Shown here one piece after another: positions 56,380-63,219 of a DNA stretch of 64,000 nucleotides; within the stretch, counting starts at the first letter, position 1; every line of letters begins with the position of its first letter. Source of the DNA: Sphingomonas sp. GTDB lineage: Bacteria > Pseudomonadota > Alphaproteobacteria > Sphingomonadales > Sphingomonadaceae. The stretch spans positions 1-64,000 of the forward strand of contig NZ_JANYEK010000206.1 in assembly GCF_025363195.1 (NCBI RefSeq). The letters are read 5' to 3'. A program made the position numbers and the translations under genes. The notes beneath the pieces were generated by a model, which was given only the letters and a program-made list of their open reading frames with translations, was not told the DNA's origin and searched no databases.

Positions 56380-57474
56380 TCAGCTGCGATCATGGCCGAT
56401 CCGGGTCGCGCGCGCGATGAGGTCCACCAGTATCGGCACATTCCGCGCCAGCGGGAGCAAGGCTTGTGTGATGTGCGGGCGTTCGGCGGCGCCGCGAATC
56501 CACCCGGCGAGACCGATCGGGCGGGCAAGATCGCGTGCGAGGCGATGCTGGAACGGGGCAGCGGCTGCGGAGCCACCGACGAGATAGGCGTCAGCGGCGC
56601 GGATTCCGCTGGCGATGGCGATGCCCATCCCTTCGCCCGCCAACGAAGGAATGACGCCAGCCTGATCGCCGAGCCGGAACAGGCCGGCTTCGCCGTTCCG
56701 CACGCGCCAACCATACGGCACGTTGGCGATGGCATCGATCCCGCCACCGATGCGATAGCCGAGCCGTTCGGCGAGCTGCGGACTTTCCGCAGCCAGCGCC
56801 GCGAGCAGTTTTTCGGGGTCACCCGCTTCGGTTAGGCGGGAGCGATGGACCGCCATGCACAAGTTCGCCGTACCATCTTCCTGTAGCACGATGCCGGCAT
56901 AGCCACGATCGAACAGATGCAGTTCGATCGCGTCGCCGATCAACCGGTCGAGCGCGGGGGCCGGGCCGAGACGCAGGCGCAAGCCGAGCGTCGGGTCCGC
57001 CCCGCGCGCCGCCTCGGGCCGGGCGAGGCCGCGCACATCATGCTTGCCGCTGGCGAGAAACAACGCCTCGGCTTGGAGCATCGTCCCATCCTGAAGTCGC
57101 GCCGCGCGACTGGTCGTTTCTCTTACGGTGACGCCCCGCTCGATCACCGCCCCGGCCTGTGCGGCGCGGGCGAGCAACAGCGTGTCGAGGTGGCGGCGCG
57201 ACACCCCGTGGGCCGGGCGGGGCAAGCGTGCCTCGGCCACGCTGTCGCCGGAGAACAGGCGGACCGTGGCCACGCGCGCCGGGCCTAGGGCTTCGGGTTC
57301 GATGCCCAGGGTGGCGAGCGATTCGAGTGTCCGCCAACTAAGGAAACCCCCGCAGATCGCATCGCCGGTTTCGCGGGTGCGCTCGATCAGCAGATGCGGC
57401 GCCTTTGCACTGGCGAGGCGGATCGCCGCGCTCGCCCCCGCCGGACCGCCGCCCAAGATCAAAGCGGGGATCAT
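56380..57474 (-). CDS. FAD-dependent oxidoreductase (geranylgeranyl reductase-like)
   Basis: MIPALILGGGPAGASAAIRLASAKAPHLLIERTRETGDAICGGFLSW; GDQAGVIPSLAGEGMGIAIASG. Confidence 0.88.
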   Translation of the reverse strand: MIPALILGGGPAGASAAIRLASAKAPHLLIERTRETGDAICGGFLSWRTLESLATLGIEPEALGPARVATVRLFSGDSVAEARLPRPAHGVSRRHLDTLLLARAAQAGAVIERGVTVRETTSRAARLQDGTMLQAEALFLASGKHDVRGLARPEAARGADPTLGLRLRLGPAPALDRLIGDAIELHLFDRGYAGIVLQEDGTANLCMAVHRSRLTEAGDPEKLLAALAAESPQLAERLGYRIGGGIDAIANVPYGWRVRNGEAGLFRLGDQAGVIPSLAGEGMGIAIASGIRAADAYLVGGSAAAAPFQHRLARDLARPIGLAGWIRGAAERPHITQALLPLARNVPILVDLIARATRIGHDRS

Positions 57475-58157
57475 CGAAGACGTTCGACGCAGAGACGGAA
57501 CGGGAAGTTTCTGGTTATTCGGGCCTGGGATATTCCCGCCTCGGCGAGGATCGGTGGCCATTCGCTCGGGCGATAGGATCGCGCGATCGACAGGGTGCCG
57601 TCGTGACGCACGATGCGGTGCCAATCGAATATCCGCGCCAGAATTGGAAAGCCCCAATGCGCGAAACGATGGCGATGCAGGTCGTTGACCAGCCAGCCCT
57701 TCGCCGCCTTGCGCTCCATGAAGCGCAGGAAGGCGACCAGCTGCTCCTGCGTCATATGATGCGCGACCAGGCTGCTGACGATGAAATCGAATGGGCCATC
57801 CTGATCTGCGTAATCGCCGGTGATCCAGCGGATCGGCAAGCCCGGCGGCGTGTGCGCACGCGCAGCGATTTCGCTGCGGGGGTTGAGATCCACGCCGACC
57901 AGTTCGGCGACGAGCCCTGTCCGTTCAGCCCAACGCGCGATGCGGCGCAGCATGTCGCCATCCCCAAAGCCGACATCAAGCAAGCGGAAGCCGGTCATGC
58001 CTTGCGTGCCGCGCTCAAGGAAATCGAGTGTTGGGCGCCCCGCCATCGTCACGACATTGACCTGGGCGAGATCGCCGACCACTGCGGCATAGGTTTCCGC
58101 GTCTAGATCGTCCGCGTCCATCAACTCTTCGGCGATGGCGCGCCGCGCGAGGTTCAT
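57471..58157 (-). CDS. class I SAM-dependent methyltransferase
   Basis: FRLLDVGFGDGDMLRRIARW; DFIVSSLVAHHMTQEQLVAFLRFM. Confidence 0.88.
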   Translation of the reverse strand: MNLARRAIAEELMDADDLDAETYAAVVGDLAQVNVVTMAGRPTLDFLERGTQGMTGFRLLDVGFGDGDMLRRIARWAERTGLVAELVGVDLNPRSEIAARAHTPPGLPIRWITGDYADQDGPFDFIVSSLVAHHMTQEQLVAFLRFMERKAAKGWLVNDLHRHRFAHWGFPILARIFDWHRIVRHDGTLSIARSYRPSEWPPILAEAGISQARITRNFPFRLCVERLR

Positions 58158-59236
58158 GATGCGCTCCGGAAACCGAAGCCCTCGGCGGCCAGGCCGGGGC
58201 CAAAGGCGAGCGCCACCCCGTCGCGGATCGGCGGACCTTCCAGCAGCCTGGCCAGCGCAAACATCAGGGTTGCGGACGACATATTGCCGTTTTCCGCCAG
58301 CACCGCGCGCGATGCCGTCAGTGCGTCGGGCGCGAGCTTCAGGCTGTGTTCGACGGCATCGAGGATCGAGCGTCCGCCGGCATGCACCGCCCAGCCGTCG
58401 ATCTCGCTCGGCGCGCGTCCGCCGGTCGCGGCACGCGCGAAATCGGGATCGGCGAGGCCAGCGGCAATCCGCGCGGGGACCTCGCCCGATAGGTGCATCG
58501 CGAAACCGCGATCGGTAATGTCCCAGCGAATCAGCGCGTCCGAATCCGGAAGCGTGGTGGCAAAAGGCTGGCCGAGGGCAAAGCCGACGGGTTCCGCAGT
58601 GACGATTCCCGCCGCCGCGCCGTCGCCGAATTGCAGCATGGCGAGCAGGGGTTCGATTGCAGGATTGTCCTGCAGATGCAGCGTGGAGAGTTCCACGCAC
58701 ACCACCAGCACGCGAGCCTCCGCGTCGGATCGAACGATGTGTCGCGCGCTGCGCAAAGCGGCGACCGCGGCATAGCAGCCCATGAACCCGACCAGCAGCC
58801 GTTCGACCGAGGGCGACAGGCCGATTCTCCGTGCGATGATCTGATCGACGCCCGGCGCGACAAAGCCGGTGCAGCTGGCGACCACCAGATGGGTGATGTC
58901 GCCAAGCGGGTATTGCGCGCGCAACGCATCGATCGCCGCGATCGCGAGATCGGGCGCGGCGGCGGCGTACAACTGCATCCGCTCGGCCGTGCCGGGCAGG
59001 ATTGCATCGGCATAGAATCCGCCCGAATCGACCGGCGATCCACCATCGTCACCGATCGGCAGGATCGACCAGCGATGCGCGATTCCCGCCCGGCCGGCCA
59101 TGCGATCGAACAACCGCGCCTCGCGCGGATCGGTCAGCCTGGCGCGCGCCCACCCGATAAAGGCGTGGTGGATATCGTGGCCGGGAACAGCCGTGCCGAC
59201 TGCGTTGAGATAGGATTGGGGGTAAGCAGGGGGCAA
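58154..59236 (-). CDS. type III polyketide synthase
   Basis: Catalytic triad context: ASCTGFVAPGVD (Cys), WAVHAGGRSILDAVE (His), LAENGNMSSATLMF (Asn). Confidence 0.94.
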   Translation of the reverse strand: MPPAYPQSYLNAVGTAVPGHDIHHAFIGWARARLTDPREARLFDRMAGRAGIAHRWSILPIGDDGGSPVDSGGFYADAILPGTAERMQLYAAAAPDLAIAAIDALRAQYPLGDITHLVVASCTGFVAPGVDQIIARRIGLSPSVERLLVGFMGCYAAVAALRSARHIVRSDAEARVLVVCVELSTLHLQDNPAIEPLLAMLQFGDGAAAGIVTAEPVGFALGQPFATTLPDSDALIRWDITDRGFAMHLSGEVPARIAAGLADPDFARAATGGRAPSEIDGWAVHAGGRSILDAVEHSLKLAPDALTASRAVLAENGNMSSATLMFALARLLEGPPIRDGVALAFGPGLAAEGFGFRSAS

Positions 59237-62417: not shown

Positions 62418-62448
62418 AAAAAGCCGCCACCCTTTCAGGCAGCGGCTT
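62418..62448 (-). terminator. Rho-independent terminator of the PEP-CTERM gene
   Basis: Minus strand AAGCCGC-N14-GCGGCTTTTTG, with inner CCT-GAA-AGG, 24 bp past the stop. Confidence 0.8.
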
Positions 62449-62471: not shown

Positions 62472-63092
62472 TTATGCGAAGCTGACGGTCGTCTTTACCT
62501 TGCGGCTGCGAGCGGCGGCACCGATCATGCCGAAGCCGAGAACCATAAGGCTCCAGGTGGCTGGCTCGGGGACGGCAGCAACAGCCGTATCGGCATAGGT
62601 CCGGAAGGCGTAATCGAAGGCCGGGAAAGACCCATAGCCTGGGTTGGCATAGGTTTGACCGAAGGCGTATGGATTATTGACACTTCCTGCGATCCCGTAA
62701 CCGCTCGTGCCGGTGAAAACGAGATAGTAGGTCTGGTTTGAAACGATCGAAGTGGGCGTAAACGAAACGTCGATCCATTGATTGTTCGCACTGTAATTAG
62801 CGCTGCCGCTCGCGAGCAAAGTTGCTCCGCTAACGTTGGGGAGGTTGGTGTAAAGCGCGATCGTCAGCGAACCGGGACCCGAACCAGCAGATGCCGTCAG
62901 GTAAACGCCAGCGCCGGTGATATTGGAGGCACTCTGGCGGAAGGACTGAGCCAGACCGGTCTGACTGAAGACTGCCATAGAGACGGTTGTGATCGTCTGC
63001 TGTTGGTCAATCGCGACTGCTGCGTTCGCAATTGCTGGTGCTGCAAATGCGTAAACGCCGGCCGCAAACATCATCTTCGTCATCATTTTCAT
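62472..63092 (-). CDS. PEP-CTERM sorting domain-containing exported protein
   Basis: N-terminal signal peptide; C-terminal VPEPATWSLMVLGFGMIGAAARSRKVKTTVSFA. Confidence 0.95.
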   Translation of the reverse strand: MKMMTKMMFAAGVYAFAAPAIANAAVAIDQQQTITTVSMAVFSQTGLAQSFRQSASNITGAGVYLTASAGSGPGSLTIALYTNLPNVSGATLLASGSANYSANNQWIDVSFTPTSIVSNQTYYLVFTGTSGYGIAGSVNNPYAFGQTYANPGYGSFPAFDYAFRTYADTAVAAVPEPATWSLMVLGFGMIGAAARSRKVKTTVSFA

Positions 63093-63131: not shown

Positions 63132-63149
63132 AAGCAATCGTCATGCCAA
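63132..63149 (-). promoter_or_regulatory. sigma-54 (RpoN) -24/-12 promoter of the PEP-CTERM gene
   Basis: Minus strand TTGGCATGACGATTGCTT matches TGGCAYR-N4-TTGCW; ~40 bp upstream of the ATG. Confidence 0.75.
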
Positions 63150-63202: not shown

Positions 63203-63219
63203 TGTAAGAACATCTTACA
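63203..63219. promoter_or_regulatory. palindromic upstream activator-like site
   Basis: TGTAAGA-ACA-TCTTACA perfect 7-bp inverted repeat ~70 bp upstream of the -24 element. Confidence 0.6.

Follow-up and report, generated by a model that had tools for sequence, protein, structure and literature searches.

The locus

A gene for a 206-residue protein of the PEPxxWA-CTERM type is located on the minus strand of the 64-kb window, by which we mean the whole stretch of DNA that was analysed, and is preceded by a sigma-54 promoter element, a 17-bp palindrome and an SRAP-domain gene (Table 1). The protein has a signal-peptide-like segment at its N-terminus and carries the sorting signal PEPATWSLMVLGFGMIGAAARSRK at its C-terminus, the very end of which is PEPATWSLMVLGFGMIGAAARSRKVKTTVSFA. 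Both PF07589 and NF035944 score over their cut-offs, in agreement with the initial annotation, which had placed the promoter in front of a PEP-CTERM gene. The hairpin AAGCCGCTGCCTGAAAGGGTGGCGGCTT that follows the gene resembles an intrinsic terminator, and near-identical copies of it, 30-34 bp in length, follow several further PEP-CTERM genes located on separate contigs, suggesting that the window gene is transcribed as a single-gene unit.

The only close relative of the window protein in genome_contigs is encoded by a Phycisphaerales MAG (51% identity over 187 residues), and 400 genomes of the same bacterial family gave one weak match, leaving no orthologous gene in which conservation of the promoter could be traced. 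As the best public relative is in a Phycisphaerales MAG although family members have almost none, transfer of the mature domain between phyla is a possibility. Approximately 1.1 kb past the end of the PEP-CTERM gene is a DDE transposase gene (PF13701; 59999-61351). Further along, at 56380-59236, a chalcone-synthase-like type III polyketide synthase gene adjoins a FAD-binding oxidoreductase gene and a methyltransferase gene, the last named by reading, and together these likely make up a small polyketide cluster.

Table 1. Features at the PEP-CTERM locus, in window coordinates
Feature	Position	Strand	Remarks
Intrinsic-terminator-like hairpin AAGCCGCTGCCTGAAAGGGTGGCGGCTT and short T run	62421..62448	-	about 26 nt after the stop codon of the window gene
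PEPxxWA-CTERM protein, 206 aa	62475..63092	-	PF07589 33.2 bits (cut-off 20.7); NF035944 47.6 bits (cut-off 35)
Predicted transcription start	63122	-	from sigma-54 promoter geometry, 12 nt downstream of the -12 C (63134)
Sigma-54 -24/-12 promoter element TGGCATGACGATTGCT	63133..63148	-	GG 63147-63146, GC 63135-63134; exact consensus match
Upstream activator site, perfect 17-bp palindrome TGTAAGATGTTCTTACA	63203..63219	-	predicted PrsR binding site, centre near -89
SRAP-domain gene, 213 aa	63225..63866	-	PF02586 73.5 bits; directly upstream of promoter, stop codon ends 5 bp before palindrome

The sigma-54 element and the upstream palindrome

Direct reading of the minus strand from 63149 to 63132 gives TTGGCATGACGATTGCTT, and positions 63148-63133 fit TGGCAYR-N4-TTGCW with zero mismatches, as the initial annotation had noticed. 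This is the sole match in the 64-kb window, where none is expected, and not one of 100 dinucleotide shuffles contained a match. The geometry of sigma-54 promoters places the predicted start 30 nt upstream of the start codon (ATG at 63092), which agrees with the initial estimate of about 30 nt, and the ATG itself lies 40 nt past the end of the 16-bp element, inside the range published by Haft et al. 2006 (PMC1569441). No sigma-70-like site was found on the minus strand of the promoter region. The element can be regarded with near certainty as a genuine enhancer-dependent sigma-54 promoter, one that serves a gene for a surface-sorted protein.

The palindrome TGTAAGATGTTCTTACA lies 54 bp upstream of the -24 element and was absent from the initial annotation. 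When one mismatch is allowed it has no other match in the window, where 0.02 are expected, and its exact form, TGTAA-N7-TTACA, occurs 10 times in the 3.07 Mb draft genome, with all 10 copies at PEP-CTERM promoters of the set described below. Comparison of the window with a paralogous copy on C122 revealed that the palindrome (16 of 17 positions) and the -24/-12 element are conserved and that the spacer between them has diverged, a pattern that can be read as footprint-like evidence for both elements.

A set of matching promoters in the draft genome

Genome-wide statements here are built on pattern searches, family searches and the examination of individual contigs, and because the assembly is fragmented (a draft in 261 contigs, 88% complete, with 3% contamination), links between contigs are tentative. 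The initial annotation had recommended a genome scan for the same promoter upstream of other PEP-CTERM genes. Throughout the draft genome TGGCAYR-N4-TTGCW has 17 matches, versus 4 for the reversed control pattern. Eleven are in front of PEP-CTERM genes, three precede glnK or flagellar-type genes, names that were assigned by reading the sequence and not by family search, and three are apparently due to chance; both flagellar-type genes are on contig C159. Nine of the 11 PEP-CTERM genes are complete, one is split across overlapping contigs, with its 3' part and PEP-CTERM on C259 and the rest on C157 (546 bp overlap, 97.6%), and one, on C122, is represented only by its 5' end and is cut off after the signal peptide. 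The palindrome, scored as at least 10 of 12 consensus letters, is in front of all 11 PEP-CTERM sites and none of the six others (best 7-8 of 12); at the glnK and two flagellar-type sites it is missing, with a best score of 7 of 12.

Searching from the side of the proteins, we found that the PEPxxWA-CTERM cut-off is exceeded at 23 places in the genome, 21 of which have upstream DNA that could be tested (one via C157). The palindrome and -24/-12 element together precede 12 of these 21 genes, including two, on C13 and C241, in which the -24/-12 element is one or two letters off consensus. With the addition of the truncated C122 gene, the set therefore consists of at least 13 genes, which supports the earlier reading of the window gene as a probable member of an EPS/surface regulon. 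The distance from palindrome to TGG is tightly restricted, being 51, 52, 53 or 54 bp in two, seven, three and one of the 13 promoters, respectively, and the combined palindrome-plus-promoter score is 21-24 out of 24, whereas none of 1500 random stretches of 400 bp scored above 19. The full promoter is missing from the remaining 9 of 21 testable genes, so that the regulon takes in only part of the PEP-CTERM genes. Two further PEP-CTERM genes, at loci L019 and L031, have imperfect palindromes, TGTCGC..CGCTTACA, placed 42 bp ahead of weak -24/-12-like sequences without the GG; as their score of 19 out of 24 is at the edge of the random range, they were not counted. They may represent a weaker promoter class in which the activator site is one more helical turn closer, or may be due to chance.

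Spacing in relatives

In order to look beyond this genome, we used a strict search pattern consisting of the palindrome, a gap of 42-70 bp and the -24/-12 element. The pattern detects nine pairs in the present genome and one or two in each of 7 of 150 other genomes of the family, and across a phylum sample it added a single pair in one further genome (gap of 53 bp by coordinates). The strict palindrome certainly misses variant sites and is too narrow a probe for its absence in distant relatives to be read as absence of the regulon. In family members, each of the eight strict pairs stands before a PEP-CTERM-type gene, and the gaps, in what is a small sample, fall into two groups of 51-52 and 62-64 bp (loci L072-L080 and L139). 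The groups differ by roughly one turn of the helix, in keeping with an activator that has to face the polymerase.

SRAP remnants upstream of sibling promoters

The SRAP-domain gene next to the window promoter has counterparts at other members of the set. A frameshifted SRAP copy is found before the C122 promoter (L123:225-834), and degenerate SRAP fragments are located before the C176 and C66 promoters (L134:8085-8360 and L129:1566-1929, respectively). What appear to be the last codons of another SRAP gene, cut by the contig end, are also seen at the C106 promoter. DNA similarity between the loci covers the SRAP part and, for C122, continues across the promoter and on into the signal-peptide region; at the other SRAP-linked loci the mature proteins show no detectable similarity outside the sorting signal. 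This arrangement points to duplication as the way in which the promoter segments spread, carrying SRAP DNA with them; the SRAP copies would have decayed and the promoters been kept.

RpoN, exosortase A and two PrsK-PrsR pairs

A search for exosortase and prsKR loci had also been recommended in the initial annotation, and it returned one exosortase A and two PrsK-PrsR pairs, all over curated cut-offs. RpoN is encoded by one gene (TIGR02395, 390 bits, cut-off 277). The single exosortase A gene (TIGR03109, 325 bits, cut-off 208) is fused to an EpsI-like domain and lies within a run of XrtA-associated EPS genes encoding an amidotransferase, a glycosyltransferase, FemAB, a deacetylase and an ATPase; the protein is 59% identical to its counterpart in Sphingomonas parapaucimobilis, in which the XrtA gene neighbourhood matches, and on these grounds the organism is taken to be a sphingomonad. 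The two PrsR proteins score 680 and 634 bits (TIGR02915, cut-off 502.6), and each gene adjoins one of two prsK genes, which score 500 and 418 bits (TIGR02916, cut-off 300).

The initial annotation did not include a second pair. One pair, on C219, has an XrtA-system glycosyltransferase gene (EpsB_2) as its neighbour, and its PrsR resembles that of relatives, with 79% identity to the best. The other pair (L119) adjoins genes for a polysaccharide flippase and a PilZ-domain protein on contig C46, which is 6.7 kb long and has a G+C content of 59.8%, compared with about 64%. PrsR is over cut-off in 128 of 151 sampled genomes of the family, and two copies are present only in the genome described here. 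In a PrsR tree the C46 copy is on a long branch with weak support, and its position is unreliable. A plasmid origin for the C46 pair was considered and is unsupported, plasmid PrsR homologues being less than 54% identical. The two PrsR proteins of this genome are 64% identical, and their Fis-type recognition helices are nearly alike (SRPTLYDLLKSY and SRPMLYDLMNSY); therefore, both may bind.

Proposed mechanism and alternatives

The genome thus holds the DNA elements in fixed geometry, a defined set of target genes, and the genes for RpoN, PrsK, PrsR and XrtA. We consider it highly probable that the window site is a sigma-54 promoter of a PEP-CTERM regulon that is activated by PrsK-PrsR via the palindrome and whose product is processed by XrtA. 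In this model PrsK, a membrane kinase, would respond to some signal by phosphorylating PrsR, which is an AAA+ activator of the NtrC type. PrsR would then bind the palindrome TGTAAG-N5-CTTACA at about -89, on the same helix face as the promoter, and spend ATP to open the RpoN-RNA polymerase complex sitting on the -24/-12 element. The predicted product is a single-gene transcript for the PEP-CTERM protein, which would be exported, processed by exosortase A and joined to the cell surface or extracellular polymer layer along with about a dozen co-regulated proteins. We infer PrsR binding to the palindrome, the signal, the sorting and the surface role of the protein from the named families to which these components belong.

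It is important to consider whether the consensus match could be a coincidence, with the gene read from an ordinary sigma-70 promoter. Short consensus matches do arise by chance, and about 3 of the 17 genomic matches look to be of this kind. However, conservation of the two-part arrangement at 13 genes, failure of any shuffle to reproduce the site and the lack of a sigma-70-like site on the minus strand of the region make this explanation exceedingly improbable. A different activator could conceivably act on a genuine sigma-54 promoter via the palindrome, such as NtrC, a flagellar FlbD-like protein or another sigma-54 activator of this genome, given that at least five further genes match the PrsR model strongly, at scores under the cut-off, over the AAA+ region. 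Nevertheless, we regard this as very unlikely: within this genome the sigma-54 promoters of glnK and the flagellar genes are without the palindrome, the palindrome is tied to PEP-CTERM genes both here and in relatives, and Haft et al. 2006 (PMC1569441), in a comparison of species, found this paired motif together with PrsR.

If PrsR is the activator, which of the two proteins acts at the window promoter is a separate matter. The promoter might be served mainly by the divergent C46 pair, on its own branch, with the usual pair serving other genes, which would be a sub-case of activation by PrsK-PrsR. Among the 150 other genomes sampled from the family, a second PrsR over cut-off is never seen and there are at most two strict palindrome-promoter pairs per genome, compared with nine here; in addition, the C46 pair sits beside the flippase and PilZ genes in DNA of lower G+C. 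On the other hand, the recognition helices of both PrsR proteins are nearly alike, relatives with one PrsR have the same kind of site, and the C46 PrsR is on a long and weakly supported tree branch, so that we view a main role for the C46 pair as doubtful. A broader scenario is likewise put forward only tentatively, as a rather unlikely one: the second, divergent pair, at its lower-G+C polysaccharide locus, may have given rise to, or gained control of, an enlarged PEP-CTERM regulon, with promoters of one strict design (TGTAAG-N5-CTTACA, 52 +/- 2 bp, -24/-12) spread by duplication with an SRAP gene, and with the activator site kept whole helical turns from the promoter (51-54 bp here; 51-53 or 62-64 bp in relatives).

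Meaning of the probable PrsK-PrsR control at the window promoter, and comparison with known systems

Activation by PrsK-PrsR, the preferred explanation, is a type of control with a history. Haft et al. 2006 predicted a PEP-CTERM regulon from a two-part motif, one half of which is a sigma-54 site, co-occurring with PrsR, PrsK and a third protein, the TPR protein PrsT (TIGR02917) (PMC1569441). In that study motif 1 is 17 nt and ends in TTTACA, motif 2 has the sigma-54 GG/GC, the two precede single-gene PEP-CTERM operons with a mean spacing of 62.8 (SD 10.6, range 32-92), and 99 of 167 genes had a site (PMC1569441). More recently, Xia et al. 2023 reported that pepA of Aquincola tertiaricarbonis RN12 is RpoN1-dependent and mapped its start, in front of which are a TGGCAC/CTGCTT -24/-12 element and a predicted upstream enhancer (PMC9850573). 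The link of PEP-CTERM/exosortase systems to RpoN and PrsK/PrsR that the initial annotation mentioned was thus predicted in the first paper, and RpoN-dependence was demonstrated, in Aquincola, in the second. There has been little experimental follow-up of the 2006 PrsR/sigma-54 prediction, and none for alphaproteobacteria was found in the literature searched.

The present genome is attractive in this respect. It offers an unusually clean set of 13 near-identical two-part promoters with a clear palindrome and fixed spacing, and has built-in controls, namely the sigma-54 promoters of glnK and the flagellar genes, which have no palindrome, and the PEP-CTERM genes that have no such promoter. As a result, the PrsR binding site and the helical-phase rule are directly testable, and the second PrsK-PrsR pair raises the question of its purpose. 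Possibly new are the strict 51-54 bp spacing, the palindromic form, the helical-step spacing in relatives, the second PrsK-PrsR pair, the decaying SRAP copies and the very uniform regulon.

Against the published text description of motif 1, TGTAAGATGTTCTTACA is 17 nt long, ends in CTTACA, one letter off TTTACA, and has a gap of 54 to the second motif. Shared with the 2006 regulon are the 17-nt motif 1 with sigma-54 motif 2, single-gene PEP-CTERM operons, PrsK, PrsR, exosortase and a similar share of genes with a site (12 of 21 here versus 99 of 167). The differences are a spacing of 51-54 bp in all 13 cases rather than a mean of 62.8 and range of 32-92, a nearly perfect palindromic site in which CTTACA is commoner than TTTACA, and two PrsK-PrsR pairs. 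Aquincola pepA is similar in being a PEP-CTERM gene with a sigma-54 -24/-12 element and an upstream enhancer, predicted in both cases, but it belongs to a betaproteobacterium with a floc phenotype and its RpoN-dependence has been measured, whereas that of the window gene is a prediction. The glnK-amtB promoter of the same genome, of the NtrC-type sigma-54 class, has the same -24/-12 element (TGGCACGGCGATTGCT) but is without the TGTAAG-N5-CTTACA palindrome, and a different activator is expected there. Since every defining feature that was tested is present, the window promoter is assigned to the PEP-CTERM regulon of Haft et al. 2006; its type of control was already predicted at that time, and the promoter adds a clean new case to a known kind of system without defining another.
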